Assembly: GCF_020382885.2 (NCBI RefSeq)
Contig: NC_058499.1
Coordinates: forward strand, 13,067,872 to 13,131,871
Direction: 5' to 3'
Length of the DNA stretch: 64,000 nucleotides
Source: Scatophagus argus
Taxonomy: Eukaryota; Chordata; Actinopteri; Scatophagidae
Positions 3,811 to 53,301 of the stretch are shown in pieces. Within the stretch, counting starts at the first letter, position 1. Each line of letters begins with the position of its first letter. The notes under the pieces were generated by a model that saw only the letters and a list, made by a program, of their open reading frames with translations, was not told where the DNA came from and did no database searches. The position numbers and the translations under genes were made by a program.

Positions 3811-4248
3811 GGGCCTATAGGCCTACAGCTGTTTGTTATGTAATCATCCAGCGATCGTGATCCAGTTTCTCATTTAAATAATCCACCTCTTCCTCTTCTG
3901 GCACAGGCGACACACACAGCTGAAAATTGGAAATTTGCAAGCGCCTTCTTCATTAATTAAACGCCTCTCAATCTGTAGGACACGCACACGCGCGTGCACG
4001 TCTCTAATTATACAGTTTCAGACGGATAGTACTGAAATATTGTTGTGAGGGTTAAAAAAGTCTATTGTAACCAAAGAAAGAAATTTTAATTAGATTATTG
4101 GAAGATACTGCAGAGAATTAGATACAACGGAAGGTTTTAAAATGTTAGAATAGATAGAAAAATTCTGGATATTCTATCATGCAAAGAATGTTTCCTATTT
4201 TGACACAAACATACACTCATGTGCAAAAACCATATAACCTCTACTTAC

Positions 4249-4766
4249 TCGGATTTCCTGGCTACGGCCAGAGATCGACAAAGGGTTGTGGGGGTCATCG
4301 GAACCAAAGAGCGGCAGCTTTGGCAACTTCCGCCGTTTTCTGGGTCACTTTCCAGTGGGGAAACCATGGACTGGTCGGCCGGGACCAGCTGCATGTCCCC
4401 CGGGTCCATAGTTTGGGATGGCGACGGCTGGCCCACCGGAGCCTCGACCTGTGATGGTGCAGCCGCATGGTTTGGCAAGGACCCCGCAGCAGTCTTGAGC
4501 TGGGGGTCCTGAGGGTGGTGGTGGTGATGAAGGCAGCTGGGGTCGGGGTGATGGTGATGATGATGATGGTAAGGATGATGTTGTTGTACCCTGACGTTCC
4601 GCAGGTGCCTGTTCTCGCCGATGAGCTCGTCCACTCGCCGGTCCAGTTCCTCTATCCGGGAGCGCTGGGTCTGGATGAGACTCTGCTGGTTCTGGACAAT
4701 GGTGGTGAGTTCCCGCAGGTACAGAATCGCCTGTACCGGGTTTTCCAGCAGGCTGGAGCTCATCAT
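4249..4766 (-). CDS. iqsec3: IQSEC3 (IQ motif and SEC7 domain ARF-GEF), first coding exon only
   Basis: This is the N-terminal coding exon of an IQSEC family protein, an ARF guanine-nucleotide exchange factor of postsynaptic sites; in mammals IQSEC3 acts at inhibitory synapses. Translation starts at the ATG at 4766 (a second Met follows directly). The first ~50 residues contain [20 protein letters not shown] followed by a Q/R/E-rich coiled coil, which matches the known IQSEC3 N-terminus closely. A His-rich run (about seven and five His in two blocks) and a Pro/Ser/Gln-rich stretch follow. The exon ends after about 172 codons in phase 2 at a strong GTAAGT donor (4248-4243 on the plus strand). 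The IQ, SEC7 and PH domains are not in the window, so the rest of the gene must lie beyond the left edge. The ORF stays open upstream of the chosen Met, but that part lacks family similarity and is treated as 5' UTR. Which teleost paralogue (a or b) this is cannot be told. Confidence 0.85.
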
Positions 4767-5507
4767 ACTCAAGACAAATGACGGAAGAGAAGGAGAAGGA
4801 AACTGAAACTGGACTGACTGATGGAGGACAGAGAAAATCCAAAATATCCGTGAAAGCGGATGAAAAGGTGAGATGTCCTTCCTCTCTTCTCTCGCTGATT
4901 CTTCTCGGTTGTGGATGAGGCTGCACCGACCGAGCAAGCCACCGCTTCTTCGGTCGTTTCCCTCCCTCCCTCTGTGTCTCTCTCTCTCTCTCGCACTGCG
5001 TTGAGTGGTGCTGATGAGAGGGGCCAAATCCAGATGTGAGAGGGGGGAGGAGGCGAGGAGAAGCGCTAGAGGACTGATGCGTCATTACGCACATGCACGA
5101 GAAAACTACAGAACAAGCATGCGCCCTACTGGCTGTTGAAGAAAGAGGTCCAGCATCTGGGCAACTCTCCTATTCCTTGTTTACTGCACACAACAACAGC
5201 AACAACAATAACAATCATCATCATCATCCTTAAGTTCTTGAGGAATACTGTTATGAAGTTAAAACAAACTGTGTTTTCCAAGTTTTATTCATTTAATCCA
5301 TGACCAATTCGCCCGTTCGTTCAAGTGAATTTCTGAGTGAACATGAAGGCAACACTATCATCCAAGGACACCAGCATGGTCACATGACACGTGGATGCGG
5401 AAGTACGCAACCGTTGTTTTGCTAATGATTAGCTCGGATGATTAGCACAGACAGCATAGCGACTTCTTATTATATATTTTGTAACCGTTATCAGGCAAAC
5501 AACACCC
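4767..5507. promoter_or_regulatory. Head-to-head interval between iqsec3 (-) and washc1 (+)
   Basis: About 740 bases separate the two start codons. The interval holds the 5' UTR of iqsec3, including a (CT/GA)n tract near 4978-4994, and the first-exon 5' UTR of washc1. The arrangement suggests a shared or bidirectional promoter. No TATA box stands out. The promoter call is inferred from gene order only. Confidence 0.5.
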
Positions 5508-8500
5508 ATGGTCAGGTAAGATTAATATTTTCAAGTGACAAGCTTTCGCAGTTTAACTCCTCATTGAGCTGATATTATTCGATTTGAGGCTGGAGGCGAT
5601 GCTTTCTTTAGCTCGGAGAGACTGTCAGTTTGTTTCGAATATCTTTTCTTTGCTTTTTTTAGCAGTTGTCGTTATCACATACAGCTACAGGGATCAACTT
5701 GTGCCAGGTCACGGTTTAAAACTTAAAAACATAGCTTCATCGTATTGGTTTGGGCGTTTGTATATTCCCATACTGTCATGTGAGAGTCAGGTGAGGTCGA
5801 CAAGTGTGGTTTGCTAACGTAAAGAAATGACGGTTTAGTTAACGATACTGACGCTTTGTGGTGTTGAATCTGACAACAATCACAGATTCGACGGATTCTT
5901 TTGAAAGTTTGATTTATTTCAGTCATGTCATACAGATCCCGAGGTCAGTCAGAGTTTTGACTGGGTAACACACGCCCTTGTTCTTGATTATAAACTTGCT
6001 GTTCTGCGTTGTTGTCTTCAGGATGAGCCAGAAGCACTGCCTGGAGGGCCAGGTGTACACGGTGCCTCTCATCCAGCCAGACCTGAGGAGAGAGGAGGCT
6101 GTCCATCAGATAGCAGATGCATTACTCTACTTGGAGACCATCTCTACTGATATTTTCCGAAGGCAAGTTCAGAATCACACACAAATAAGAGCCAGAGGTA
6201 GCATCTTAAAGAACCAACGACAATGAAGGCTTTTATTGCAACTGGAGTGTGAGTGTGTCATGGTTTTCTCTTGGTATGCAGTTGACAGACCACAAAATTA
6301 GCTAAAGAGAATTTGTCATTTATGCCATGTATAATGTGGGATTGTATGTTAACATCATGCTTAAAGGTTGAGTTCACCTCAAAATCATAAATTATCATTT
6401 CCCTCTTGCCAGTAGTGTTATTAGACCATCTAGATTGTTTTGGTGTGAGTTGCCGAGTTGCAGCGATATCTCTCGAACATACAGTAAATGGAGCTAGTAT
6501 TGCTCAAAGCACCAAAAAAAATAAATTAGAAAAACTCAAACAGTTCCAGCAAAGTCTGTGCAATAGCTTTAGTAACCAGGTTATAATTTCTAGAACAAGA
6601 CATTGTTGTTGAGTTTTTTAAATGTATATTTTTTGTGCTTTGAGCACCACAGTTCATAGCTGATATCTGATATCTACTGATTTTGGAGGTAACTGTCGCT
6701 TTAACGTGGTATGCATCAGGTATAAGTTGTGCTAAAAGGATTTGTTAATTAGTCTTTCAAAAGAAATTTAAATGATCATTTATTATGATAACCAGTTAAA
6801 TATATTTGTCATTTTATAAGTTAAAGGATCTTTTTACTGGCTCGCAAATTATGTGATCTGCTTGCATTTTTCTGTGTTGTTGTTGTTGTTGTCTTCACAT
6901 CATCTGTTACAGCATTTTTTTTTTTTTTTTTTTGCTGTCCATAAAGTACTTTGTCATATTTAGTGGCTTGGAGTCTAATACATTTGCAGTCCATCTTCTG
7001 AGACAAAGTTTATGCCATTTGTTTTAAAAGAGGTAGTCCCGTCTCTCACCCTGAAAGTAGAGGAGGTGTCCCCTGCTCTTAATTTTCATTAAACACAAGA
7101 AGACTACAATTACATTATTCATTCATTCTTAGGATTCAGTTCCCTGCAAAGTTTAAGAAAGAAAATGGACAAGGGAGTCTGAGGTTACGCTCTCTTCTAT
7201 ATTGGATTGTGCAATCTAAATGTATTTTCCACTGTGTGTGTGTGTGTCTGTTGCTCCCAGGGTGTCTGACAGTGTCGAGAAGAACCGGCGCCAGCTGCAG
7301 AGCATCACTGACCGGATCAGACTAGCACAGGCCCGTGTCGACAAGATCAAAGGCAGTAAGAAGGCCACCAAGGTAACGCAGCATGTGCACTTTTGGATGG
7401 CAGCTTCTCATATTGCATGTATGATACAGCAGTGATACCCAAACGGGGATACTGCTGCTGTTGCCCAGGGGTATGTGGAGAGACTGTACAGTAGCTCAGA
7501 TAATTAGAAAAAAAAATTGATTTAATGATTTGATTTAAAGAATACATTTGCTTTAGCTTTAACAATTAGTTGAGGTGTTTTTGCAATGAAAAGTGTGGGA
7601 AAACTAGTTAGCAAATGAGCAGAAGAAATGAAATAACACCATGAAAAGAAACAGCTACTAATTTGAGCAATTTTGTGCAATTAGCATCCAGTTTGAAATC
7701 ATTGGTGTGGTTAGAAGTGTAGCTGAGTGCACTGGACTGAGCTGTGGGGGTCCTTCTTGCTAAAAAGGTTGAGAACCACTGTGATACACAAAAGAGACGC
7801 AATAAGGTGACAATCATTGGAAAATTGGAATTAGCTCTGTGTCTGTCAGCTGTGTCAGTTTTTATTCTGTGTGTATAGGTTTTCTCCAGTGCCAAGTACC
7901 CGGCCCCAGATCGACTTCAGGATTACTCATCCATCTTTATCGATGCTGCAGACCCCTCCTCGCAAACCCGCCCCCGCCACAGGATACAGAATAAACTACG
8001 ACCCTTTGATGAGAAGGCCCTGCAGGTAAGATGATTATATTAAAATGCCGATGAGGGAAAGGATTTTGACATGCATTTTCTCTAATTTATGTAAACAGTA
8101 AAAAGTGGGACTTTTAAAGAGCCGTGGTTTCACAGTCTGTTCTCCAACTAATATCTTGAAGCCCACAAGCCATTGTGCTGTAATTAAGAACATTTGTGCT
8201 TGTCTGATGGTGTTGGGGCCTCTTTAGACAGATGACACTGGAAAAAAACTCCAGGTACAAAACAGGCAGAAAACAAAACGTGATTAATTCTTTATTTACA
8301 TGGCTTTTTTCAAATTGCTGAGAATAATGACAGAGTTCTCAGTCCGGTCATCAGGGGACTGAAGTCGTGACCCCCTATATTTATGACCCTGCTGTATTTA
8401 TGCTGCAGTTCAGAGGCAGTGTCCCACAGCTAGCACATAGTCCACCTTACTCCTCCAGAATCCAAGGTCTACTTTTCAGCACGATGACGGGATTTCCTGG

Positions 8501-9785
8501 GGAGGATGAACAGTGTGATACACTGATAATTGGAATACGCTGTCTGGTCTCCTTTTTTCTATAAATAGGAACCACCACTTTTTTTGCCACTCCATAGGCA
8601 CTGTTTCCAACATCCACAGGGATGCATGTGTGAAGTGTAAGCTGAGCCTCAAGGCAGACTACAATCCAAGCCACAACCTTTATTCCGTTACCTGAGCTCT
8701 GACTAATGACCGAAGGAATGAAATGTCTAACAGAAGCAGCTTTAGTGGCCCTCCATGGTAGGGTGAGAAGCTCCGATATCTGGAAGGAGCTGAAAGGGGA
8801 ATTTCTTGTTCCTTCACATTGGAAAGTAGCCGACTTAGATGATGGGAGCATCTGATGTCTCCTGGGTGTCTCCCTGAGGAGGTATTACATATCTCATCTG
8901 ACCTGGAATCGCCTCAGGGTGCTTCAGGAAAGTGCAATGACTTGGCAGGGAAGGACATCTGGGCTGCTTTGCTTAGCCTAACATGACATGAGGTCTAAAA
9001 CTTATTTAACGTATTTTAATATATTATTTGACCTGATCTGGATTCAGTATACCTGTTAAAAGAAAATATTTTAGTGGAAAAATATGGCACAAGTCTGTTA
9101 TAAAGTATGCTTTACATGTTTGTGTTACTGCCTTCACTGTGCTGGCAAATTTTCTGCTTTTTTTTTTTGTTTATGCCATCATCTTTCTTTCATGAACAGC
9201 TGTTTTCTCCTGATTAGCAGTATGCACATTAAAAACATTTGTCACTCAACCGGCACTGATAAGCTTTCAACCATGTCTGTCTCAATTTGTCACACCGAGC
9301 TAAATAACCAACTGGAATCCATTTAATGAAACATTTCATTGGCTGTAATATAAGGTGCTGGGTTCTTTAGGTACAGTATTCACCAAGAAGGGGCAGGTTT
9401 AAACATGAGGCAATGCCCCTAAAGTCCAGTGTATGTGTATATATATATATATATATTTATATATATTTAATCTTGTGTGCTCCAGATAATAACTTGAAAG
9501 ATGAAAAACAAAAAGTGTCACCTCACAGGACTTTGGGGTCTCTGTAACAAACCCAATTTATCCCCATGGCCTTCAAAGCATAGCCTCATCATTCCTTGTT
9601 CTCAGAAGACAAATAACTTGTGTGCACAAGATAAACATCACCTTTCAGGACTTTAAGGTCTCCGCAGTGCAGAGCAGCCCAGTTTTATACCAGCTTGTCA
9701 TTTTTGCTTTAAAACTGATGCTTGATTAGAAGATGAAAACATCATAGACATGTAGAAATGTGCAGCATTTTTTTATTTGCCCCTT

Positions 9786-9821
<36 letters not shown>

Positions 9822-11288
9822 TGCGTGTGTGCCTGCGTTTGTGTAGCTCAGCACAAGCTCCTGCATTATTTATAGAGAACACCACAGTTTTTCTGTTATC
9901 CTCTTAGGAAACTTTACGAAGACCGGGATATTTTCCGCTGCATGTAGTAGGTCTTGCAAGTGTGTTGTTTTTTTTTGTGTGTGTGTATCTCTGTGTATTT
10001 GTCAGAGAGGGAGAAAAGATGAAAACACAGCTGGCAGTTTTCTCTGGTGCAGAAATGCATTATATATATCCCCCTGGAAGCAATTTCCCCCGACCATATA
10101 ATTTGGTATTGCAATGTTTGCGTGTGTGTGCGTGCATCTGTGTGTAGGAGCACTTTGTTGGTGTTTATGAATTGCGTTATTCAGGATTTAGTTGACATTT
10201 TCCAGATCTCCCTCTCACTCTATGTCTGCGTTTCTTCCTTTTAGGAGAAGCTGATGTATTTCCCAGTGTGTGTGAGCAATAAGAAAAAGTCTGAGGATGA
10301 GACAGAAGAGGGGCTCGGCAGCCTGCCACGCAACATCTCATCTGTCAGCTCCCTGTTGCTCTTTAATACTACAGAGAACTTGTGAGTCCACACACGCACA
10401 CACACACAGATGCGAACCATAAACGCAGATTAGATTGAAATCTCTCCCTCATATCTTTGGATTTGTGTGTTTATTTAAAGATACAAGAAATATGTGTTCC
10501 TTGATCCTCTGGCCGGAGCAGTGACAAAAACACACACAACACTAGAGACTGAAAAAGAAGAGAAGCCGTTTGACGCACCGTTGTCCATCACCAAGAGAGA
10601 GCAACTGGAGAGACAGGTGCCTCAAATACCCTTGTCCAATCCAAAAACAGTCTGAACTTGACTTAATTTGGTACTGAGAATTTTAATGACTAATCTTGAT
10701 CATCTTTTTCCCTCTAACAGACAGCAGAGTCTTATTTCTATGTGCCAGACCTGGGCCAGGTGCCTGAGATAGATGTGCCCTCCTACCTGCCTGACCTGCC
10801 AGGCATCGCAGACGACTTGTCCTACAGCGCGGACCTCGGGCCTGGCTTCGCCCCATCAGGACCCACACACAACATCCCCGAGCTGCCCTCCTTCTCTGAG
10901 GAGAGCAACGCACCGGGTACGCTCCCCCGCATTTTCCGCCATCTCATTGTGGTTTATGTTGATCCTGTGTTCGTGAGCTGATGTAGACTTTTCATGTCTT
11001 TGTTTTCAGGCCTTCAGCTCCAACCTAATGTTCCACCTCCTCCTCCACCTCCCCCTCCCCCGCCTCCTCCTCCTGAGCCTGTCCTTGCCCCTGCTACTCC
11101 TGTAGGAGCTCCCCCTCCTCCACCTCCTCCACCTCCTCTTCCTGTTGATGGTCTTGCAGAAGTCCCTCGGGTGGCAAGTTCAGGTTTGTGTAGTTCAGAA
11201 ATCTGCCAGGTACACACCACAAACTTGGAGAATATGATTGAATTTGACAGTGTATTAACTTGTTGAAAAATTGCTCCTACCTCCCTCC

Positions 11289-11320
<32 letters not shown>

Positions 11321-12359
11321 GAGAAACCTTATTCACTGTCTTAAATTAGATCGACCTTTCATTAATGGACGTAATCCCAAATCACTCTGCCGCCCCTGAC
11401 TGTCTCCTCTGACTGCAGGCCCCGTGTCCGGTGCTCCCAGCGAGGTGGTTCAGCCGTCTGACAGCCGTGCCAGCCTCCTGGAGTCTATCCGCAATGCCGG
11501 AGGCATCGGCAAAGCCAAATTACGCAATGTCAAAGAACGCAAGATGGAGAAGAAGAAACAGAAGGAGCAAGAGCAAGGTGTCAGATTGTTTGAGTGGGGA
11601 TGTGCTACATAGTGCAGTTTCAGCAGTGATGGGGAAGCCATGCAATCAAAGCAGCGCATGACTGATCCACAGTTCATCTATGACTGTATTCAGTGTGTCA
11701 GACTGCATGTCAGAATATCAGTGTATGTGCATATGTAAATGCACACAGTATGTATATCAGTCCATGGCTTTTTGCCCTTTATATTGCAAATGTCAACCTC
11801 ATTTAAAGGTTGATTTGATTACAGTCCTATCTTCTAATTATCAGACAGCATTTCTTTGTCTTCATTTCTGGTTTGCTGGTCAGGTCATGACCTCACACTT
11901 AATTCTCGGAGAGAGCTGCACATACCAACTATCTAGTCTTGTTATTGTTCTTGTTGCTGCTATCTGGTCTTGTTCTTTGAAGTTCAGCACTGGGGAATAA
12001 ATGAACATAATTATAAATATACTGACACATGATTATTTATTTCTCTCAGCAGTGGGAGCGGCATCAAGTGGTGGAGACTTTATGTCTGATCTCTTCAATA
12101 AACTTGCCATGCGAAGGAAAGGTGAGGGTCTTTTTTCTATCAGATGAGATTTAAAAATATTGCTGCAAGTTGGTGGAACAGCAGACCGTAAGTAATGTGT
12201 CCTGTCCCCTCTGCAGGCATATCTGGTAAGGGTCCAGCAGGTGGGGAGTCAGGTGACGCTCCTGCTGGAACCGGCGGTGCGTTTGCCAGGATGTCAGATG
12301 TCATCCCGCCACTTCCTGCCCCACATTCGACAACAGATGACGATGACTGGGAGGCATAA
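5508..12359 (+). CDS. washc1: WASH complex subunit 1 (WASHC1/WASH1), complete, 11 coding exons
   Basis: WASHC1 activates Arp2/3 on endosomes and drives actin-dependent cargo sorting. Coding exons: 5508-5515, 6022-6162, 7261-7372, 7879-8025, 10245-10381, 10481-10616, 10721-10916, 11010-11183, 11419-11577, 12050-12121, 12217-12359; all phases join, giving 474 aa (human about 465). The start lies in exon 1 (ATG GTC AG), giving MVRMSQ, comparable to the human MTPVRM start. The N-terminal WASH homology domain is well conserved (for example [34 protein letters not shown]). Exon 8 encodes two long polyproline runs (about aa 296-340). A WH2 segment (about aa 366-386), a connector ([18 protein letters not shown]) and an acidic tail ending DDDDWEA form the VCA module. 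Intron 2 has a GC donor (CGAAG|GCAAGT). Exon 10 has a NAGNAG acceptor. AATAAA signals lie at 12560 and 12596. Confidence 0.95.
6163..7260 (+). other. washc1 intron 2 with GC-AG splice sites
   Basis: The donor reads AG|GCAAGT instead of GT, and the acceptor is TTGCTCCCAG. Only this donor keeps the frame (Arg codon split AG|G, followed by VSDSVEKN). This is the strong consensus seen in known GC-AG introns. Confidence 0.8.
6361..6704. mobile_element. Non-autonomous TTAA-flanked MITE (piggyBac/Kolobok-like)
   Basis: Both ends carry TTAA (6361-6364 and 6701-6704), and the ends are inverted repeats: left AGGTTGAGTTCACCTC versus right, inverted, AGCGACAGTTACCTC. About 344 bases, no coding capacity. 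The internal sequence resembles a high-copy teleost repeat that I know by its ends (AGTTCACC near one end, CACTTTAA-like near the other). It lies inside washc1 intron 2. The superfamily is inferred from TTAA only. Confidence 0.6.
7430..7781. mobile_element. Non-autonomous hAT-like MITE with 8-bp target duplication
   Basis: The left end begins CAGTGATACCCAAAC. The right end, read inverted, begins CAGTGGTTCTCAACC, a typical hAT terminus. Flanking octamers are TGATACAG (7422-7429) and TGATACAC (7782-7789), 7 of 8 identical. About 352 bases without coding capacity, in washc1 intron 3. Confidence 0.7.
8447..8990. mobile_element. Decayed non-LTR retrotransposon fragment, 5' part inverted
   Basis: On the minus strand about 8447-8640 encodes a broken reverse-transcriptase segment (around [10 protein letters not shown], comparable to the VVVPLFKKGDR motif of fish LINEs). 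On the plus strand about 8690-8990 encodes the decayed C-terminal tail (around ISHLTWNRL and, after a frameshift, DIWAALL). The 134-codon minus-strand frame over 8447-8851 comes from this element and is not a host gene. Located in washc1 intron 4. The family is not assigned. Confidence 0.6.
9482..9690. repeat. Diverged tandem duplication in washc1 intron 4
   Basis: Two copies about 120 bases apart share the order ATAACTTG ... TCACCT ... CAGGACTTT ... GGTCTC (copy 1 about 9487-9545, copy 2 about 9609-9664). Copies have diverged and no coding potential is evident. An (AT)n tract precedes them (9439-9470) and a (GT)n tract follows (9789-9815). Confidence 0.5.
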
Positions 12360-13233
12360 TGTGAAGGACAATGCAACACTTAAAGCACTGATAAGGACAG
12401 TATTCGGCAGTGTTGGATAATTTTGTGTACTAAGGACTTCCAGTCACTCTGTATTATAACATGTTCTGCTAACAGAAACTTTCACTGTAAAATAGCCAAT
12501 AATGACAATAAGTGCATTTGTTTGTCTACGCATTTGAACAAAGCAGCACTAAAACTCATAATAAAATTTTATTATGTTTGTCATAAAAATATTTTAATAA
12601 AATTAAACAAGCAGATATAAGAACACTCACTGAAATCATTTCACTAACATCTCTCCATCAAAATAAAAGTATTTTTTGAGTTACATAACACTGTACATTG
12701 AGTGCTTTAAATATTTAGTATTTTCAAGTGTAAATCAGTCACATGGATGCCCAAGCCAGTGCTTTCTCAGAATTTATTCAGTATTTATTATTCATTTTCT
12801 CCTCTCACATGTTCCAGACTGAATTAGAAGGCACTGCAGGATTGATAGACCTGAGTGAATCTAATAAATGCCTTTGACCTTTGTCTGCAGTGTGCCATCA
12901 AATACATCATTCTCTGATTCATCTTCACTTCTCTTAACTAGAGATGGTAGGAAGCCAAAGCAGAACACAAGTAACAAAAAATATACAATTTGGCATGTAA
13001 AATAAAGGTAGAATGATGAACTGGGAACAAAAAAACAGCCTCTCTGGTGGACCTTTGAACTCCAGGAGCATTCAAGAGATCTGATGGTTTCAAAATGGTC
13101 AAGAACATAAAGAGCAGCAAAAAGTGCTGTAGCAATCTTACACACAAAATTGCAGATTGAGTCGCGCTGGGTTTAGTTGAACTATGGTCTTGAACTATGG
13201 TAAAGTTGAATACTGGAGAAATGTCAGTTGAGA
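12360..13233. terminator. Convergent 3' UTRs and poly(A) signals of washc1 and ddx11
   Basis: The stop codons of washc1 (+) and ddx11 (-) are 874 bases apart. Plus-strand AATAAA hexamers are at 12560-12565 and 12596-12601. Minus-strand signals (TTTATT on the plus strand) are at 12773-12778 and 12784-12789. The two transcripts therefore probably end within about 200 bases of each other or overlap slightly. Confidence 0.6.
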
Positions 13234-16200
13234 CTAAACCTGCTTCTGCTTTTTCTCCAGGAAGAACTAGGAAAAAAAGAACAGAAGAGTCAGCGTGTGA
13301 ATACATTTTAGTGGCGATACCGTGGTTTTAGGGTGGATACGTCATAAGCGTGCTTGCTTCTCACCTTTCGTAAGGCAGCAAACGCAGGGCCAAACGTTGT
13401 GTGTGAGCTGGTGCGCTCTTTGATCCATGCAGGAAGTTTAGAGAGCGTAGCAGGTCGAGAGTAACGTCTGTCACACAGCACCACGGAGGAATAGTCGCCA
13501 CGGTGACGGATAGCTCTTCCTGTAGGCAGGTGAAGTCAAATGCATACGAGTACTGAGCATACTATCTAATTACTGTTAATGATTTTTTTAATAACAACTC
13601 ATGAATATTGCATCATTACCTATGGACTGATTAACAGCCTTCATGCAGAGGTTTTCTATGAGTGCTTGGCCAGGGCTCCTGCCTCCACTGTGAGGCTAAA
13701 AAGGAAATAAATAAATAAAGAAGAAAGAAAAAAACTACTGAAAACTTAAAAAATGATCTCTGATGAGACTCGTTTAAGGACTCCTTTGACCTTGCACTTG
13801 TTTTTGCCAGGTTTGTGGATACACTGGAGACTATTAGGACAGAAATGAATCTCACCAAGTGTTTGTCCATATAGGACATTTTTTCCTGCAGCTCTGGGGA
13901 TTTGATGTTGGGGTATGGCATTCCCACCATCACCACACACCTGCCCAGGTCATCAGAGAAATTGATGCCCTCGCTCATCTTTCCTCCGACCACAGAGAAC
14001 AGCAACGCTCCCGTGAGCCCGCCGCCGTCCACAGCACACCTCTAATGAAAGGAGAAGAGACGTGCAAACATTAATGTGCGATGGTAGCGCACACATTGTC
14101 AACGCTCTGTCACAAGAGCTGATGTTTGTGCGCTGACAGTTTTACCTGGATACAACGAGAGAACTCGCTCAGCACCTGCTCGACCTGGCTGGCTTTTTTG
14201 GGCTCCTGGAAGATCTGAGAAAAGTGGTTGTGAGAGCTTAAAGAGTGTATGGGTGGTTCTCTTTTCGCTTTAGGAATTATTTTCCCGCATTAAAACGTGA
14301 TAAAGAACGTTTTTCTTTTTTCAGCTTATTTAACAGAAGACCTCATGTAACTGACGTACCTTCTTCTTGTTAGAAAGACGAGTGAGTGCACCGCTGGCAT
14401 CCCAGTGGGAAATGATCCGCCTCAAGTACTCATAAGAGGGGAAGAAGCACACAACGCCGTCTGGGACCACGTTACAAATGTTGGAGAGAATGCGCCCTGT
14501 CTCATCCATCTGTCAACAAACAGCCACACATCTGCAGTAATGGTTTATGTAAACAGCACAGCTGCATTCGATGATATATGGCAAGGACTTAATGAAACAG
14601 TAAGCATATGTTACCATGCGTGGAGAGTCTCTGTTTTGGAAAGTAAAATCTAGCTCCTGACCGGATGGGCCGCTGCACAAGACGAGGGGAAGAATGTTCT
14701 CAGGAGGAATAACATGACCTGCAGACAGTGTTATCCAGCAAAAAAATAGATCTGTTATTTTATTGATATAAATATAACAATACAAGTGTAAAATATAACA
14801 ACACATAACACAGAACATAACATCTGCAAGACTTTCTTGTTCGTGTGTATTAACAGTAGATCACAGAGTTAAAATTTCACACAGATATTGTGAGTCTGAG
14901 GACAAAGTAAAACATAGCACGTCTTTAATTTTGTATGTCAGTGTCACAGGAGCACAAGTGTTGTTCAGGTACCTTATGACACAACAATCTACCTCAATCA
15001 TCATTCAACCTGTGATGACAGGGAAAAAAAACTCTTCCTCAACACAGAATCATTATGGGCGAACAAAAACACTATGGTTTAGTTCACGAGATGTATTGTT
15101 TGTTTGTTTGTACCATGTTTATCATGTCTTCTTGGTCTGTTCTGATATGATAACACTGTATGATCTCCCACCTCCTATTACCTGAACCAGAATCATGACT
15201 CTTGTATCTAGTCAATCCAACCGCATAACTAAACAGAAAATTAGTTCTCATACTGAAAAACTGCTTTTATTGGAGTTTCTGTCGAGCATTATATTATTCA
15301 TCAAAAAGTCCTGTAAACAGAAATATTGATAAACACATCGCTCAGAGAGAGAGTGCATCATAAAAAAACACAAACAGAGAAGCTCTACAAAGTACTGCAG
15401 TGATATGAAATGGGTCACTCACCACAGGAAAACTCAGTGATGCGCTCCTCTTCCACTCCGGCAGAAAACAGTAGCTCTTGTTTGAAGTCTGAAACCTACA
15501 TATCACATCTTTTAGAATTATAAAACTTAAGCAGCAAGGGTTTCATTTATTTTTAGCAGATTTGAGATAACTTACAGGCTGCATGGTTCCTCCTGCGATG
15601 ATGACTGCTCTGCATTCCTTCAGCACCTGTGCAAAGTGGACTGCTGGATTCAACAGCAGGAACTTGGCGCTGCTCTCTGATAAAGTACCTGGAAATTAAA
15701 CAAGTGGGGTATTTCATAACATTGATTTTGTTGCAGTTTGCTTATTTGGTGTTCAACTTTTTTACAATGGTACCTTGTCTGTGCACCACCACTCTGCCAT
15801 CAGTGTTGCTGCTGGTGAGAGCCAAGAAGAAACCCTCCACCTGCATCATGGGAGATGCACACAGCACTTTCTCTGTCTCTGCAGACCCCTGCTGGTCTGC
15901 TAAAGACACTGCACACACGGGAGCCGAAAGAGAAGATAAACCACGATCAATAACAACCGGGAGCAGGAAAGTACCTGATTGCTAAACACAAATGGCTGTA
16001 TGTGAGGGGTATGCACATGGTGTGAAAAGAACGAAAACATCTGCACATGCAGCAGCATGCATTATATTTATTCTCTTGCCTGTGCACTTTACAAACAAGG
16101 TGATGTGGTGGGTTTTTATGGTAGTGGTTCAACTGTAGGTGGTGTCTGTGCAAGTGCAAGTCAGTGGAAAATGTCTATCAAAGGAGAATGAACGACAGCT

Positions 16201-19200
16201 CAGTAGGTTTTTCTGAAATCAAGCATTTTTAAGATTTTTCCATTGCTGAATATGATCCTTTATTGTCATTAACTGATGCCACATGCCAGCAACAAAATTG
16301 TCCACCTCCAAATTGTGTTTTGTCATTTTGTGGTGGGTGATGTAAGCATCAGCCCACTCACCTGGCGCAGTGCTCTGGTTGCTCTGTAGCGTTTGAAGGT
16401 AGCGGTTTAAGCCCTCGGTGCGTCGGTTCTCCTTGTTGGAGCTGCTCTGAGTGTGCAGACTCACACCTGATCCTGCGTACTTCTCCACAAAGCCGCCCAG
16501 CTGCGGAGAGAAGACAAGCGTGGCATTAATTTCATTTTACCGTAGATCTCTCTCACAAAAATTTAGTAGTTTATATGAGGCATAAATCAAAACACATTAA
16601 ACTTACTTTTCTGCTGATCATGCTCTTCTCAAAGTATCTCTGTAACTAAAGGGACAGTGGAAGTTTGCAGTTTGTATAGGGTGTTTGAAAAACATGACTG
16701 TGATCAGCATAATAACACCTTTGTTGTTAACTACCTTAAATAAGTTGATATTGTCGATCTGAGCCTTGAAGAGGAAGTTGTTTATTGTGTGCATTTCAGT
16801 TCCTAAAAGACAAAAGAGATGTGACTCGTTAGCAACGTCTGCTTAGCTGTGTATTACAGCTGCAAATATTAATCGATTAGCCATCAGCTATTGCATAAAT
16901 ACAATGGTCGATTAATTGGTTTGAGGAATAATAATGAAAAAAAAAAGAGAGTCAAAATTCTGTGATTCCTCTATGACTGTAAACTGAATATCTTTGAGTT
17001 GTGGACAAAACAAGACATCTGAGGTCATCTTTGGGCTTTTCATTTTTCACCATGTTCTGACATTTCATAGATCAAACAACCAATAGTTGCAGCCACAGCG
17101 TGGATTATTGACTGACCTGCTTGTGTAGTCTGGCTCTGTGGATTCTGCCCCACTTTACCTGCAGCGACAACATTCACATCATAGGAGAAAATGTTGCATG
17201 TGCCCTGTTCAGCAATTTCCCCTTCAAACCACGTCGCTGACTGCCAGTAATCAATCATCGAAAACCAATTTTAGCCCAAAAGCACTCACCTCCCAGCACC
17301 CGCACAAGTCCCTCAATCACAAACAGAATCTGCTTGATGTACATCACGTTCTTTGCCTTCAGTCTGCTCCTGATGGTGTAAATGCATTAACATCAGCAGG
17401 CAATACAATATTTAATTTGCGAATGAGTGCAGTGTGCCAGTGTGTATACTCACTTATAGCGTTCAGCATACTGGGTGAGCTGAGAGTAGGCACGACAAAG
17501 CTGTAGAAGATTCCAATTTTAGCATATCACAGGGAACATGTATGATATAAATTTCCATTTTCTACATAATTTGTACAAGTGTGTTTACCTGTGCTCCACT
17601 GAGTTCTGCGCTGTGTATACAGGAGAGTGTGTCACTAAGATTGTGAGCTTCGTCTATAATGACAACCTATGAAGAAACAGATTACTGGTGGGTAATACGC
17701 TAAATCAGTTCCACTTCAAATAGCTGAAACTAAACCTGTATTTGGCTCTTTTCTGTTTTTTGGTACCTGTTATGCTGCACATGTGATGTCAAATTAATGA
17801 AGACATTTTCTTAATTTGATAGTGTTTTTTGTCTATTTGCATGTAAGCTGTAGTACACTGAGCTCTCAGGGCCACTGTATGAAACTGATAAAAGTATGGC
17901 AGAATCACCAGGTATCCAAACAATCTAAAATTTCCCAGTCAAACTGGCTCTGTGTGTTTACATCTTTGTTCTGAAATGTTATTGCGATGTGCCAATGATT
18001 AAACTACTTATAAGAAAGTGTCTTCAACATTGGTGGGGAATTTCAACCATTAAAAAAAGTATTTTTTAAGATTTGCATGATAATATTGACAATTGCTGAG
18101 CAGAAATAAAATATACGATAGAACAAGAGAAGCTCAAAAATAACATCTAGTCCTACCTGTCCCTTCAGTTGGATGCCTGCTGCCTTTCTTGTAGCTTCAT
18201 GAAGCAGCATCTGATAGGGCAACACCACCAACTATGCAGACACAATAAGCAGAGACCATACAGATTGCATTGAAAAAGCGACTGGTTATTGCTCCCCAGG
18301 TTAACCTGTGGGGAAGAAGACTAAGACTGACATTAACAGCAGAACAAGCAAGCAAACAGTCTCCAAAGTAATGCGACACAGGATGGGATGAACAAAGGAG
18401 GACAGTTTTACCTGAGCAGGGGGAATGGCGAGGCGAGTCGAGTAGTAAGGACAGGAATGTTTTTCTCTGCCCAGCTTCAGCAGCTGTTCGATATCATGGA
18501 CTGTCCCCAGAATGTCATCCCTCATCTGCTGCAGTGCTGAAGCTTTATTGTAGGGACACACACTTTTTGCTGGGCCACGCTTACGTTTTACGCCCTCTTC
18601 ATCATGCTGCTTCTCTACAAAAGGGAAGAACGAGCAGCGCTGCTAGGATTAACTCTTCTTATTTATTTTTATGCGTTAAAACAGCACTGAGGGTTGTTTA
18701 AGGATTATCTGATTGCATTCGAAATATCGTAAATAGCAACATTTCTCTTACAACTGACAAATCTCATACAAGGTTGACGTTAGCTGGTACTGATCTTCTG
18801 TAAGATCAGTAGTTTTGGAGCCAGTGCGTGTGTGGCGGGGGGCTCTCACCATGTTTGTTTTTCTGCATCTCCATACAGCGGTCATTAATGTGCTGGATGT
18901 TGCCCAGGCGACGCACCTCCTCGTTGATGCACAGATTCTGGAAAGTACACAGTTTGATGTTTACTGGGCAAACACTGTCAGATGTTATGTTGACAATCAT
19001 TTTGCTGTAAGCAGTAAATGTTCAATGCCAAGTTGTAACACTGGCATGTTTGATAAACAGAGTAAATATCACCTTCAAGAAAACACAGCATATCACATTC
19101 TGTCTCCAAACAACACTTTAAGTAAGCAATCATGATCAAACATTCCTCAGTACATTTACATCTACTGCTTGTAGTCACAATGAGACTTAAAGAAATATAC

Positions 19201-20714
19201 TAAAATCTAACCGTTTTACTGGTAGTCTGTGGGTGTATATTTCAGAGTGTGTGTGCGTGTGTGTGTGTGAGAGCACACACCTGCCGTGAGCCCAACGTGA
19301 CCACACTGACGTCCTTGCTGAAAGGGCTCTTTTGAACCTCGTGGACAAATTGGGCCAGCTGGGAGTGAGTGCGGCTGCAGTAGTAAATCTAAGAACACAC
19401 ATATGTATGTAGTCTCACTTCAGTGTAACGTGAGACACTCATTATTCAGTGGGACGCTCTTTCTTCTTTTACAGTTAGAATGTGAAATATGTCTCTAACA
19501 AACCTTAGTGACATGTTCTTCAACCAGTTCATCATCTGTGTCATCCTCACCATCACAAAACCTGAGCATGAGAGCAAACAAACCCTGCTGTAATTTTAGT
19601 TTCTCACCATGATGTAACATTTGATGAACTCAACTCTTAAGCAATATTTGGGACTGTGCAATACATTTTAGACATTTTTATTCGTGCTACTGTTTATTCC
19701 ACTCTTGCTGCTTATTTATGTTGAGTTGTTTGTTCTGCACATGTATTTTATCTTGCACCTCAAATGCAAGGAGTTACATTTGATTTTCATTGTACTGCTG
19801 TTCAATGACAATAAAGGCATTCTATTCTTTTCTTTTTTGATATAACTGGCAGCCAAATACTTGGCTGCTCTCACCTGCTCCTGCTCTTTGACTCGTCATC
19901 GCTTTCATATTCTGCGACGATAAGTTCCTCATCTTCATGATCTCCTTGTGTCTCTGTTTGTTCCTCTTTACTGAGCTGGAGCAACTTGAATGCCTCATCA
20001 TCTTCACAGCTCTACAGATACATACAGAGAATTCATATATTGACTTCTAGAGCCTTGGATTATCTTAAAATTGTCATTGTGTCTGATCACTTACTTTCCT
20101 CTTCATTGCATACTTTAGCTGAACATTGTTTCTGATCATTTCCAGTCGCTCCTCTCTCTTCTTTCTTTTCAATTCTTCCTCCTGACACGCAAAAACATGC
20201 AATAACATTTGAAAGACAAAATTCTCAGAGGTTCACACCAAGGTCACGTGTGTAGCACAATGGCATTCTTACCTTCAATTTTGACACCAAATCACGTTCT
20301 GCCTTTTTCTGCACAAAATCAGTGATCCAGTCAGGCTCCGCTGAGGAGCTGATTGTGGAGGACTGAGCGGAGGAAGTGGAAAGAGTTGTTTCTCCTTCTT
20401 GCAGCAGAGCAGCTGCCTCCTGTCTTCTCTTCTCGTCATAGTCCGTGAGCCAGCTTAGCGCTCCACATATCAGACTCAGAGACTTTCCCTAGATTATAGG
20501 ACATATGTGGTGAAAACACAGATCAGTCAATAAAATCTAATGGCTCCTGCTGTAATCTCTTTTATATGCATGCACACATACATACCGTTCCAGTTGGACT
20601 TTCAAAGATGCCGACTTTGCCCTGGTCAAGTGCCCCATACAGGGCTTGCATAAACTGCTCCTGGATGTTATAGGGTTTGTATGGAAATGGAAACTGAGAC
20701 CTGCCATTCTCCAT
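13234..20714 (-). CDS. ddx11: DDX11/ChlR1 Fe-S DEAH-box DNA helicase, complete, 26 coding exons
   Basis: DDX11 is an XPD-family 5'-3' DNA helicase needed for sister-chromatid cohesion and replication repair. Exons 5' to 3': 20714-20586, 20488-20273, 20181-20095, 20011-19875, 19561-19504, 19388-19281, 18937-18850, 18614-18412, 18231-18157, 17666-17589, 17500-17454, 17369-17290, 17158-17117, 16802-16735, 16645-16607, 16500-16362, 15899-15774, 15688-15576, 15495-15423, 14718-14615, 14509-14360, 14214-14146, 14041-13856, 13695-13620, 13519-13365, 13266-13234. All phases join; 892 aa (human about 906). Walker A SPTGTGKS (aa 39-46) spans intron 1; DEAH is at 372-375; QSIGRAIR (motif VI) at 828-835. 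All four Fe-S cysteines are present (C248, C266, C294, C329). Start chosen at MENGRSQ because a 5' UTR acceptor (CTTTCAG) lies just upstream at 20729; an ATG at 20768 is in frame but upstream of that acceptor. Confidence 0.95.
19630..19840. repeat. Probable interspersed repeat tail in ddx11 intron
   Basis: The stretch ends with CATTGTACTGCTG, TTCAATGACAATAAAGGC and a TTCTTTTCTT run, which resembles the 3' tail of a common teleost retroposed element. Family and exact 5' boundary cannot be fixed by eye. Confidence 0.4.
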
Positions 20715-20728
20715 GTTCGTGAACCTGC

Positions 20729-22008
20729 CTGAAAGATGCCAAAATTCAGTTGATTTCTGTTCAGACATGGTCACTATGAAACGAGCACCTGGCTACTTAA
20801 TCAACTGAAAGCTATACACAGTATGTTTAGACTGGTTTGTGTTAGCTACAAGCGCTAACTTCTGATAGAGATGTTATGTCTACGCATGAAGCAAATTTTG
20901 AGGCTGGATTCTGGTCTTACGCAGATCAATCAATCTCATTACAACCGTGGCGAATTTCTGATTAAGTTTGCCTTATTTTTCTACAATATACATCTATGCA
21001 CTACAACGACATAAATCATCATTTGACTACACAGCTTCCCAGTTAGCGTATGTGTTATGTCAGGCAGCTAACATTTAATTTTAAAGGTTGTCACAACGAG
21101 CTCTTTTGTTGTCTTCTGCTGTTAAGGAACAAAAACTTCAACGCCAGCGGTCTCGAATCCATAGCTATGTCATTAATAACATAATAGATAACCTTATCGG
21201 CTTAAGTCTTAATGCTGTTCATCATCTGAACAGAGATTGTTGAGATTCTTACCCGCAGATATTCTAAAAAATAAGTTTTTGCTTTGTGTTAATGTTTTCG
21301 TCTCACCGCCGATTCAACAACGCGCCAACCCAGAGAAATGGACAGCGAATCTGACCAATAGGGTGCAAGATGAAACAAGAAGCGCGTGTTTTTAATATTC
21401 TGCAACGCTTGCGAAGACGGGGCTATGTAATTCTGTTTCCTATTTTTGTCATTCAATACGGAGCTACGTGACTGCTACATTACACTTGAAGTGAGTACAC
21501 GATTCGTTATCTATTTCATGGCACAACGTCTGTAAATTATGTGCTTGTTCAGTCTAGAGTGTGCACCGCCTTTCCGGGAGACGCCCTTATAGTATAAGTA
21601 ACGCCGAAACGTAATCTCACCCCCCCTTCCTCCTAGAACGTCTGGAAAATTCTCTCCCCTTCTTTAAGCGCTTGTCAGACGTTTGGCTGCTAAACAACGT
21701 GGACTTGGAGCTACCTCTCATCCTGCCCGGATACAAGTGTGACTGGTGCACAACGTTAGCACGGTTTCAACGCGGCTAGCTCTAAGCTGTAGCGTATTAT
21801 TTTATTTACAGCGGCATTCACGAGTTAGTGAGGATACCGAAGAGGTTTAAGAAGCGTTAGTTAGCAAGCTAGCGTTGACCTTAGTAGGGTTGTTGCTTGC
21901 TGCAATTGACGTGAATTGAGAAGTAGCATTAGTTAGCTTTAGCCACCTATTAGTCAGTGTTAGTTTGAATTGGAGTGCAGGTCAGAGTAGAAGATAGAAA
22001 ACTACTTA
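20729..22008. promoter_or_regulatory. Head-to-head promoter region of ddx11 (-) and fkbp4 (+)
   Basis: It contains the ddx11 5' UTR intron (20729-21252; donor GCGG|GTAAGA read on the minus strand, acceptor CTTTCAG), the ddx11 first exon from 21253 upward, and the fkbp4 5' flank and 5' UTR. A TATA-like TTATAGTATAAG lies at about 21587-21598. No other gene is seen. Confidence 0.5.
21644..21653 (+). promoter_or_regulatory. Heat-shock-element-like site upstream of fkbp4
   Basis: GGAAAATTCT consists of two perfect inverted pentamers (nGAAn, nTTCn). The preceding pentamer (CGTCT) is a partial third unit. It lies about 355 bases before the fkbp4 start. FKBP52 is an Hsp90 partner also known as HSP56, so HSF control is plausible but inferred. 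Confidence 0.4.
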
Positions 22009-25000
22009 ATGACAATGACTGCAGAGGAGCAGACAACTGAAGGACAAAACACCATCCCAATGGAAGGAGAGGATATCACGCCAAAGAAAGACGGGGGTGT
22101 TTTAAAGGTAAATTGTAGTGTTTTGGTGCAGCATATTTAAACCAGCTAGCTGAGTGATTATCTGTCTCCTTGGTGTTTACTCATTCAGCTAGGCTAACGT
22201 TAGCTCGGCTGTCGCATGTACTGTCAATAAAAACGGCTAACAGGGTAACCACAACGCTGACAACACAGTAACACTGTTTATATTTTTTCTTGTCATTGGT
22301 TACATAGCTGACTTACTAACAGGATGTCAACAACGGGGATAGTTAGTCATTTCAACCATCTACATTTCTAGAAAGATCTAGAGTCCTCCATAAGGAGCAA
22401 ATGCAAAAGCTATTAAGGCTGATGGGGTGCATTTACACAGACAGAGATAGATTTGAATGAGACGTTACAGCTCACGGTCATTCACTATGAATGATTTGGC
22501 AGCTTTACCTTTTACAATGCAAAGAACTAGATTGCAGGGTCGGTACACAGGACGCAGCTGGCATGTAAGGCTTTTTGTTTAAAGGCTTTACATGCCAGCT
22601 GCATACATGATGGATTTTTTTTTTTAATAAATCCCTGATTTGGATAAATGCTCTTCTTGCTGCCTGTTTTTCCAGCTGGTGAAAAGGGAAGGCACAGGCA
22701 CAGAGCTGCCCATGACTGGTGACAAAGTCTTCGTACATTATGTAGGCACACTTCTGGATGGTACTCATTTCGACTCGAGCAGAGACAGGGGAGAGAGGTT
22801 TTCCTTCGAGTTGGGCAAAGGTTGGTTTCATATCTTGCAGAGACATGAACATTCACCTGGCACAGTTGCACAGCCAGTGTTGTTAACAGTTTTCTATGTG
22901 TCTAGGTCAAGTGATAAAGGCATGGGATATCGGCGTAGCCACAATGAAAGTGGGGGAGTTGTGTCAGCTCATCTGTAAGCCAGAGTATGCTTATGGGTCT
23001 GCAGGCAGCCCACCTAAGATACCCCCCAATGCCACTCTTGTTTTTGAGGTAAGCTTCAATGATATCAAGCTATTTTTATTATCTTTGTTCCTGGGTTTGT
23101 GCTTGAAACACAACATGTCTTGATCCTTTTCATTGATGTGAAAAAATAATTTACTTGTCTGCAAACTTATAGGTGGAATTGTTTGAATTTCGAGGCGAGG
23201 ACATAACCGAAGATGAGGATGGAGGAATTATCCGTCGCATTATTACTAAAGGACAGGGATATTCCAAACCTAATGAAGGAGCTGCTGTTGAAGGTAATAC
23301 ATTCAGACACACCTTCTTCTTATGGAGATGCAATTTTTTATTCACCATCCCTTTAAGAGTAAAAATATAGCAAGATCAACGTCACCAGAAATTATTCATT
23401 CAAATCATACACCAACTCAGTGTATTTTTTTTTAGGTGAGAGCTGTTACAGTGTAACAATGGCAATAAGTGACATTTCTTTATTTATTACATTTCTTTAT
23501 TTCTTTATTTATTAAGCAACATGTGAGACCATAACTCTTTTAAATATCTGGGGATGTATTTGCATCAAGGTATTTGTCTCTCCAGACCCCCTAATTGGAT
23601 TAGGCCATAGAAAAGACATCCAAGATGAACTTGGTGTCTACTTGGTGAAATGGTTTAGTGCGCCGATGCTTATTTTAAACTTCACCATACATTTGATGAT
23701 CATGTGACACTTTCCAAATTGGACTTTTGACTATCAAATATTCACCCGCTGTAAGTGTGAAAGGTGGCTTGACTTTCAAGAGTTAAGATATCCTCCCCCA
23801 AATTGACACAAACAGTTGCAGTGGATTCAAACTGGTCTCTCTTGTTAGCATTTCATCTTCATTTATCTTCGCCGTGCTCATAGGAAGACGCTGACCAGCG
23901 TGGGGGGGTTACACATTACAGTAAAGTAATCCCATGCTTGATATTGACTGATTTACAGACATTCTTATCAAAGCAAAGGATTTTGGTTTTGGTTTGGAAA
24001 ATGCATCACTTGTCTTCAGCTGCCACATATCTAAGTTTGTGGCGAAATGTAGAGTCTGATTTATGGCAGAATCTAACCGCAACAATTTTTCAACTCCTTT
24101 CAGTAACTGTGGAGGGTTCCTGTGAAGGACGTGTATTTGATGAGAGAGAACTGAAGTTTGAGATCGGAGATGGAGAGAGTCTTGGCTTGCCAGCTGGAGT
24201 GGAGAAAGCTATTATGGCTATGGAGCAGGGAGAGGAGGCACTCTTCACTATAAAGCCTAAGTATGATCACTTGTTTTTAGACAAATACAGACTGTTTCTT
24301 TAGTGATGTATTCTGAGTATTTCTTTGTTTTTTTGTTTTCCATCCGATCATTATGTGGGTTTTCCTACTAAGGAGTCAGTTGTCTTAAGTAAAATATTAT
24401 CCCTGTCTCCTGCTAGTGGACTAAAGAGGGAGTTAAGTGTGTTGAATTCAATTGGGCTCTAAAGAGAGTCAAATTTGGCTAACACAGTTGACTTCGAGTT
24501 TGAGACTGTGACATAACAAAATTACTTCAACCACAAAATCTGATTGACAAAATACCTTGAAGTTAGAATGCAAAAGGTAATACAACATGTCTATCCTACA
24601 TTTGAGATGACTAATGATAATTGTGTTTGTATTTGCAGGTATGGTTTTGGGACTGCAGGAAATTCAAAGTATAATATTCCGGGCGGGGCAACACTGCAGT
24701 ACAAAATCAAGTTGATAACTTTTGAGAAGGTAAACAGAGCTTGGCCCAAGTTGGCCGTTTATTTGTCTGATGTGTACAACGACAGAATTAATTTAATGTC
24801 TGTTTTCTTTAGGCTAAGGAATCATGGGAGATGAATACAGCAGAGAAACTGGAACAAAGCAGTGTTGTCAAAGAAAAAGGAACGCAGTATTTTAAGGTAT
24901 GCAGGAGTGCACAGGGTTTCCCCATACATTCATTACTAAAGGATATGCATTGACACCGGTTATCTGCTTAAATTAAGCGATTGGAGATTGGACAGACATC

Positions 25001-26823
25001 CTCAAAACTTAACAAACAACCTGCCGTCTGTGGGCACTGACATGTAGCCAGGAGTCGGGTTTCGTGACATTTATATGTACCTGATAGCCCTGATATTTTG
25101 TTGAATCTATTTGTATAGTCAGTCGCATAGCAATTCACTTTTTAGGTGTGTTTGGTGTTTATGCAGCATTCAAACTGAACACTAATGTATTTGCTGAATA
25201 TGAATAGTATTGCGACTCACGGTGGTCTAACGTAACGCATATGGTAGCCCACCACACTATCAACATTGCCCACCCAGTAGTCATTTTTTATTTTGCTGCA
25301 TCCCAAACACCTCACACACGTTTCCCACACATAGACTCTACTTAAGTGGCTGCCAAAGTTTTTGTGGTGCCATCTCTTCTGTTTAATGTAAGCCAGCCTT
25401 TGCTGTTGTTTGGGTTGGTGCACAGTCATTCACTACCACTTTGGCTTTGATCGTTTCGATGGGCATCCCTCCCCTCTTCAGCTAAGACAAGTTAATACTT
25501 TTTCATGTTTTCTAATGTACTGATTCCATATCCTTTAGGAGGGAAAATACAAACAGGCATCGGTGCAATACAAAAGGATTGTGTCGTGGCTGGAACATGA
25601 GTCTGGTTTGTCAGAGGAGGACGAGAAGAAAGCAAAAGCATTGCGGCTGGCTGCACATCTGAACTTGGCCATGTGCTTCCTTAAACTGCAGGAGCCAAAC
25701 CAAGCTCTAGAAAGCTGTGACAAGGTATAGTTTGTGAGGTGAACACACACACACACACATTTGAGAAACATTCATTCAGAATTAAGCAGATTAGAGATTT
25801 GTCTGTGTTGGAGTGAGAAGTGGTTTAATTCTTTGTTACAGTGAGTATAGTTTGTGTGAATAAATGCTGCAAACATTTCATCATACTGTGTTGGTGGTTT
25901 CTAGGCTCTAGAGTTGGATCCATCCAATGAGAAAGCTTTATTCCGAAGGGGAGAGGCACTGTGTTGTATGAAGGAGTTTGACAAGGCAAGAGATGACTTC
26001 CAGCAAGTTGTTCAGCTGTATCCCACCAACAAAGCTGCCAAGAGCCAGGTATGATGCACTTTTTGCCATCATGATGATTGAGTTTGTCACAAATCCAAAA
26101 AAGGTTCATTACATAAAAAAAAATATGAATGTTTCTCTTTTTATACAATCTAATTTTGGCTGTGAGGTCTTTGGGTCTACAGTCACTGTGCTGTCAGGGC
26201 ACATGGTGCTGTCTTAAATGTATTAAATATCTGCCATCACCTCATTTGGCTAGTAAACTGTTGCTTCTGCATTTTCTGGTAAACCACATGCCAGTTTTAA
26301 AGAAGGGACATTTCTGTGCACTCAGATAAAGCCCACATTTAAACTTGTTCGTTATCCTTCAGATCATATCAAATTGCACTATGACATATCTGATCAAAAA
26401 AGCTGAAATCATTCATTGCATCTTTCGCCCATTGCTATAACTTTGTCACATCAGTGAAATATGGTTGTCTCACCTCTCCTTTATTACGTCCTGCCAGGTG
26501 GTTCTTTGTCAGAAACGTATCAAGGAGCAGCATGAGAAGGACAAACTCATCTATGCCAACATGTTCCAAAAATTTGCAGAGAGGGATTCAAAGGTGAAAA
26601 ACTGTGTTTCTTACAGCAGCCACCAGGGGGAGGGATAGGCATGCTTTTGCAAAAGAATGTCTGAAAGGGACAAAAAAATGCTGATTTGGATGTTTTGTGG
26701 TGTATTTCTCTCAATGAACAGAAAGAAGCAGGGAAGGTGAAGACTGACAGCAAGGAGAATGGCGACGAGGAGATGGAGATTGAGATTGGAGAAAAGGAAG
26801 TTGCGAGTGAAGCAAATGCGTAG
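22009..26823 (+). CDS. fkbp4: FKBP4 (FKBP52) Hsp90 co-chaperone, complete, 11 exons
   Basis: FKBP52 is a peptidyl-prolyl isomerase immunophilin that joins Hsp90-steroid receptor complexes. Exons: 22009-22107, 22676-22820, 22906-23048, 23173-23293, 24104-24260, 24639-24729, 24813-24896, 25539-25724, 25905-26048, 26498-26593, 26722-26823; phases join to 455 aa (human 459). Order: acidic N-terminus; FK1 domain (about aa 34-140) with conserved [17 protein letters not shown] and VIKAWD; FK2 (about 160-255); three TPR units (about 270-400) starting near [20 protein letters not shown]; charged tail. Two features favour FKBP4 over FKBP5: GSPPKIP (proline, not leucine, in the FK1 loop; P117 here) and the hinge DITEDEDGG with a Thr matching the FKBP52 CK2 site. 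Two in-frame ATGs (22009, 22015) give MTMTAEE or MTAEE; the second matches mammals exactly. AATAAA at 27686 and 27950 suggests a 0.9-1.1 kb 3' UTR. Confidence 0.96.
25300..25420 (+). repeat. Possible hAT-like repeat fragment in fkbp4 intron 7
   Basis: The stretch CGTTTCCCACACATAGACTC at 25319-25338 resembles the terminus of a common fish repeat (consensus remembered as CAGTGTTTCCCATACATAGA). A similar GGTTTCCCCATACATTCATT occurs at 24915-24934. No clear target duplication was found. Confidence 0.3.
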
Positions 26824-30451: not shown

Positions 30452-47436
<16,985 letters not shown>

Positions 47437-51642: not shown

Positions 51643-53301
51643 TCATGCATCAAACATCTTCTTCCTGCCCTCCATACCAGACATGGCCTCCACATTCTTA
51701 CGCCAGTCACCCACCTCCATGGTCAGCTCCTTAGTAAACAAAACAAACAGACCTTTAGGTTTTTGCAGTTTTTTTCAAAGATTTTGGATGGCTGTATCTC
51801 TGCTTCACTGGGCATACCTTCTCTTGTTTGATGTCCTCTTTCTTCACAGACTTGAGGTTTGCCCTCAGGTCCATGGAGCCCTTGCTCTTGGACCCAAAGA
51901 GAGCTCTCATCATCTCATCTGCCGAGACTCTCACCTTTCTCAGAGCTGGCTTCTTGAACTTCCCTCCGAGGTCCTGCACCTTTAGATTCAGTTCATTGAT
52001 CTAGAGGTGTTGAAAGTGCTTAGCTGGTGACTTTATGTTAATAAACAACACATACTCCTGATATACTTCAGTATTTTTTATTTAAATCTGGTGTGTGGTG
52101 GTGCATGACATACATCTCTGTTGTTCTTGATGACTTTGGCCTCGCAGTCGTACCGCTCCTCATCCACCATATCAATCTTTGCATGAATCTGCTTACAGAG
52201 TTTCTGCAAAACAACAGTAAATACAAATATCCACACTGTTGAAGTACAAGGACAAGACACTCTTTTATGCTTTACTTCCTCTGGTGATTTTTTGTGACTC
52301 CCACCTGTAGGTCATCCAAATTCAAACCTGCCAGCTGCAGGGGTGGAAGCTTCTCTCCCAGGTAGTGAACCTTTGCTTCCTCTTGTGCTGCCTTCTCTGC
52401 CTCCAGCTCTTCCATGGCACGAGCCAGCAAGAGGATCTGGATGAGTCAAAGTTAACATGGAGAGAAGTCAGCTCTTATTGTTTTCCTGTTACTTGATTTG
52501 TGTGTCAGAATTTAAGGTAATAAGTTAGCACATCATAGTTTATATGTCTTACCTTCAGGGAGAGCTTGCGGGAGGCTGAAATCTTGCATTTGGGCTGTAA
52601 ATAATAAAAAATATTAAACATTACATCTAACCTATAATGATATAACATATATATATACTTTTCTGTAGGATCAATTAGGTTTGTTTGGTTTTTTACCTGC
52701 AATAGCTAAAATATGTTCCCAGAGTCTTTTCTCCTTGTCTAAACTTGCTATTCTATGTTATATCAAGTAAAAATGACTCCTTACCATGTGTCTAAATACA
52801 TTTGCCCATATGACACTGAACAAAACATCACAATAAACCTTTAGTTTAGCTCACACCTGAAGAAGAATTTTATGTACCTCAGTATAAACACAACATGTCT
52901 GCAAAAATTTTGACATTTTACTTTGACATTAAACTTCAACTTTCAAAGTTCAACAACAAAGTTCAAGAATTGATCATTGCATGCTCCATATACCTTTTAA
53001 GGCTGAAAACATTAACAAGAAGTTTAATAGAATCATTGTTTCTTTGTATTTGTTGAGCTGATCTTTCTAAAGAAGGACATTTGAGTTTATCAGACAGTGA
53101 TATTTTAATAATAAAGTAATATTACATGACCCATTTCCTTTAAAATATTGTTTTCTTCAATGGAAAAGAATCATTCACTGAAAATGCAAACATGACTACT
53201 TGAAAAGTTAGCACAATGGGACTGTTTTTCATAAATACGTCTGGTCAAATAAGTCAAACTACCTTTGCCTCTGCCTTGGGCGGCATGCATGCTGGTGTGT
53301 A
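51643..53301 (-). CDS. tnni1: Troponin I, slow skeletal/cardiac type
   Basis: Troponin I is the inhibitory subunit of the thin-filament troponin complex in striated muscle. Exons 5' to 3': 53301-53263, 52594-52553, 52436-52305, 52203-52114, 52000-51818, 51729-51643. From the ATG at 53286 (MPPKAEAK) they encode 185 aa (human TNNI1 187). The N-terminal helix [14 protein letters not shown], the IT-arm helices ([18 protein letters not shown]), the inhibitory region ([18 protein letters not shown]), the switch segment and the C-terminus ([20 protein letters not shown]) are all present. [14 protein letters not shown] and the C-terminus are TNNI1-like rather than fast (TNNI2). Divergences include [12 protein letters not shown] where slow isoforms have the more usual LLGSKHKV. 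The first exon listed is open upstream of the Met (YTPAC), so translation may start further 5' (see 53421-53424 and 53577-53587). Which teleost tnni1 paralogue this is cannot be resolved by eye. Confidence 0.88.

Follow-up and report, generated by a model that had tools for sequence, protein, structure and literature searches.

A fish genome with convergent washc1 and ddx11 genes in the gene order described for other vertebrates

We are highly confident that a fish genome has kept the ancestral vertebrate gene order iqsec3-washc1-ddx11-fkbp4, in which washc1 and ddx11 are two ordinary, intact housekeeping genes that converge on each other. The analysis covers a single stretch of fish DNA 64 kb in length, hereafter the window. 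It provides one more genome in support of the idea that the DDX11L/WASH units at the ends of human chromosomes are remnants of two genes that were neighbours long ago, rather than something put together in primates. Conserved synteny of these genes is already known, and the window adds little beyond a 2024 description (PMC10924726).

Background

Within the WASH complex of endosomes, WASHC1 is the subunit that activates Arp2/3. DDX11 is an Fe-S helicase with roles in the cohesion of sister chromatids and, together with Timeless, at the replication fork. A Timeless-binding EYE motif of DDX11/Chl1 is described in PMC8109800 and PMC7506991.

In humans, WASH1 genes are closely followed by a DDX11-like fragment on the opposite strand, and the WASH8P copy on chromosome 12 is considered the ancestral human copy, with only 3 of the 13 human WASH1 copies able to yield a full-length protein (PMC10924726). 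The fragment, DDX11L, matches DDX11 exons 18 and 22-25 plus the 3'UTR, its 3' end overlaps the 3' end of WASH by a few bases, and that 2009 report gives it as found in primates only (PMC2705379). It was proposed there that a rearranged piece of DDX11 had moved beside WASH in primates. This is contradicted by the later account, in which the fragment results from an inversion in primates with one endpoint within DDX11 (PMC10924726). A WASH/FAM138/DDX11 segment has been traced to chromosome 12 of the ancestral African ape and is described as single copy in macaque and orangutan (PMC12926204), whereas the earlier report counted DDX11L twice in rhesus and did not find it in orangutan (PMC2705379).

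Outside primates, PMC10924726 reports that wash1 is followed in zebrafish by ddx11 on the other strand, that FKBP4-DDX11-WASHC1-IQSEC3-SLC6A12/13-KDM5A is contiguous in tetrapods, and that WASHC1 adjoins IQSEC3 in the elephant shark.

Results

The washc1 gene (5508..12359, + strand) and the ddx11 gene (13234..20714, - strand) lie tail-to-tail in the window. The initial annotation had described this arrangement over 5508-20714, with both genes intact and their stop codons 874 bases apart, and the spliced models bear it out in full: the span runs precisely from one ATG to the other, the stops are separated by exactly 874 bases, and the products of 474 and 895 aa contain no internal stops. Introns are of the GT-AG type in nine of ten cases in washc1 (the tenth is GC-AG) and in 25 of 25 in ddx11, tallies that are not independent evidence because the exon borders of both models were picked by eye to preserve frame and splice sites.

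The washc1 model, spliced from the window sequence, comprises 11 coding exons and has its sole stop at the end. An N-terminal WAHD domain is present, with a Pfam match to PF11945 (WASH_WAHD) over residues 13-292 at an E value of 1.1e-129. The product also shows runs of proline and ends in an acidic DDDDWEA, which may belong to a VCA region, although Pfam returned no VCA profile match. A PDB search with washc1 returned no solved WASHC1 structure at an E value of 0.001. Exon 10 could also be spliced at an alternative acceptor 3 bases away (CAG/CAG), and intron 2 apparently has a GC-AG donor (GCAAGT, 6163-6168).

The helicase gene has 26 coding exons and encodes a Chl1-type member of the XPD family, with Pfam matches to DEAD_2 (residues 212-394, E value 3.9e-52) and Helicase_C_2 (E value 3e-51). 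A Walker A motif, GTGKS, is found at residue 42 and DEAH at residue 372; an EYE motif at residue 178 sits after GTGKS and before the DEAD_2 match. This XPD-family helicase is best read as ddx11. Human FANCJ is its top PDB match, at 284 bits against 169 bits for the chain named CHL1 (8rev_A), which would speak for fancj/brip1 or another XPD relative in place of ddx11; the searches turned up no vertebrate DDX11 sequence to compare. We give that alternative almost no credence. The window helicase has 895 aa and the FANCJ chain 1271, and by eye the product appears close to human DDX11. Its EYE motif lies N-terminal to the DEAD_2 match, where DDX11/Chl1 places the Timeless-binding EYE, and the gene adjoins washc1 and fkbp4, as DDX11 does in tetrapods according to PMC10924726.

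As for chain 8rev_A, the blocks of it that align to the window helicase are similar to those of RAD3/XPD, as are the scores. We doubt its CHL1 label, which may be wrong judging from these alignments, because the aligned blocks nearly match those of RAD3/XPD. Viral contigs were also searched for relatives of the window helicase; three stretches fit a sequence pattern, and none of the three was confirmed.

Both genes have a neighbour on their outer side. The gene upstream of washc1 belongs to the IQSEC family, and its first coding exon is in the window (4249..4766, - strand), with an ATG at 4766, a donor at 4248 that was read by eye, and the remainder of the gene beyond the window start. A phmmer query of 4245-4760 had its best PDB match in the N-terminus of IQSEC2 (9m46, a 67-residue chain; E value 4.4e-10), and a Pfam search of this first coding exon gave no matches. 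This neighbour had been named iqsec3: its sequence places it in the IQSEC family, and we infer paralogue 3 from position. The gene is divergent from washc1, with 741 bases from ATG to ATG. Upstream of ddx11 is fkbp4 (22009..26823, + strand), a complete gene of 11 coding exons encoding 455 aa, with 10 of 10 introns GT-AG. Its best PDB match is FKBP4, at 639 bits, ahead of FKBP5 at 556 bits. The two genes are divergent, with an ATG-to-ATG spacing of 1294 bases. With a divergent IQSEC exon beside washc1 and a divergent fkbp4 beside ddx11, the order is therefore iqsec3-washc1-ddx11-fkbp4. The washc1-ddx11 linkage may, reportedly, have been noted first by Linardopoulou et al. 2007, the WASH gene paper.

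Both members of the convergent pair thus have close divergent partners (IQSEC gene/washc1, 4766-5508; ddx11/fkbp4, 20714-22009), and shared promoters are therefore possible on each side. The observed/expected ratio of CpG is 0.65 at 4300-5000, 0.95 at 5200-5900 and 0.89 at 21200-22200, with 0.40 for the whole window.

The gap between the facing stop codons (12360..13233, 874 bases) carries AATAAA signals on both strands. On the + strand they are found at 12560, 12596, 12662, 12863 and 13001, and on the - strand they start at 12573, 12778 and 12789. Counting AATAAA alone, with the variant ATTAAA left out, the five + strand signals compare with a mean of 1.1 in 500 shuffles (5 is reached in 1 of 500) and the three - strand signals with a mean of 0.5 (3 is reached in 8 of 500). 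One location, at 12560..12573, is a perfect 14-base palindrome, AATAAAATTTTATT, that provides AATAAA on both strands. From the sequence, washc1 likely uses sites within 12560-12662, and ddx11 likely uses 12778 and 12789. The poly(A) signals of the two genes had been placed within about 200 bases of each other; this stands for the likely choices among these predicted sites, whose spacing runs from 116 bases (12662 on the + strand to 12778 on the - strand) to 229 (12560 to 12789). A more ambitious reading of the junction, with its two-strand poly(A) signals and palindromic AATAAA, is that it constitutes a conserved termination element that has contributed to holding the two genes together from early vertebrates onward and of which the 3' overlap of human DDX11L/WASH is a direct descendant. 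We consider this reading unlikely.

Elsewhere in the window, the gene at 42222-45390 is one that we presume to be b4galnt3-like. Two joined pieces of it gave a CHGN match (E value 0.0002) below the Pfam cut-off, and single frames gave none. A troponin exon lies on the - strand at 51755-52000 (PF00992, E value 4.9e-20), and a c2cd5 exon at 58532-58975 (C2CD5 YbjQ-like domain, PF23025, E value 8.1e-13). Over the whole window, Rfam returned no structured RNA at gathering score and ARAGORN returned no matches. The telomere-like repeat TTAGGGTTAGGG, with at most one mismatch, likewise had no matches in the 64-kb window, in which single TTAGGG occurs five times per strand.

Discussion

Compared with the description in PMC10924726, the window has FKBP4-DDX11-WASHC1-IQSEC3 in the same order and orientation, with the IQSEC paralogue assigned from position. 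The pairing is ancestral, and this is already published for zebrafish and land vertebrates in that source, the one among those consulted that describes the ancient pair. A chance arrangement was considered and rejected, as zebrafish and tetrapods are stated there to have the same order.

The initial annotation had proposed that the fish locus represents the ancestral one behind the human pairing. This interpretation is supported: the same is stated independently in PMC10924726, and the window has the same four-gene order. In that account, a block with DDX11 and WASHC1 would have been duplicated in an ancestor of Euarchontoglires. In primates, a block of 16 coding genes would then have been inverted, one of its ends lying midway through DDX11, and WASHC1 with a DDX11 fragment would thereby have come to lie at the end of chromosome 12, from which subtelomeric copies would have spread. 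On this account, the human pairing would be inherited and not newly assembled (PMC10924726). The window is in agreement with this 2024 account for fish and tetrapods and is silent on the primate steps.

The competing model, that of PMC2705379, is that the pairings in fish and in primate subtelomeres are independent, a rearranged piece of DDX11 having been moved beside WASH in a primate ancestor. It draws on the report in that paper of DDX11L in primates only. Set against it, the complete genes face each other tail-to-tail in the window and, as PMC10924726 states, in zebrafish and tetrapods. Because these share that order, no move of a DDX11 piece is needed, and we regard an independent origin as highly improbable.

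The inherited pair is thus our preferred reading, and by description (PMC10924726) the zebrafish wash1-ddx11 pair and the tetrapod FKBP4-DDX11-WASHC1-IQSEC3 block have the same genes, order and washc1-ddx11 convergence as the window. The human subtelomeric WASH-DDX11L units, as portrayed in PMC10924726, also resemble the window in having WASH followed by DDX11 sequence on the opposite strand. Two traits of the primate duplicon are absent from the window. One is telomere-like repeats nearby, given the lack of TTAGGGTTAGGG matches at up to one mismatch. The other is the reduction of DDX11 to a fragment: the DDX11 part of the human units is a short rearranged fragment, whereas the fish ddx11 is intact at 895 aa, as is washc1.
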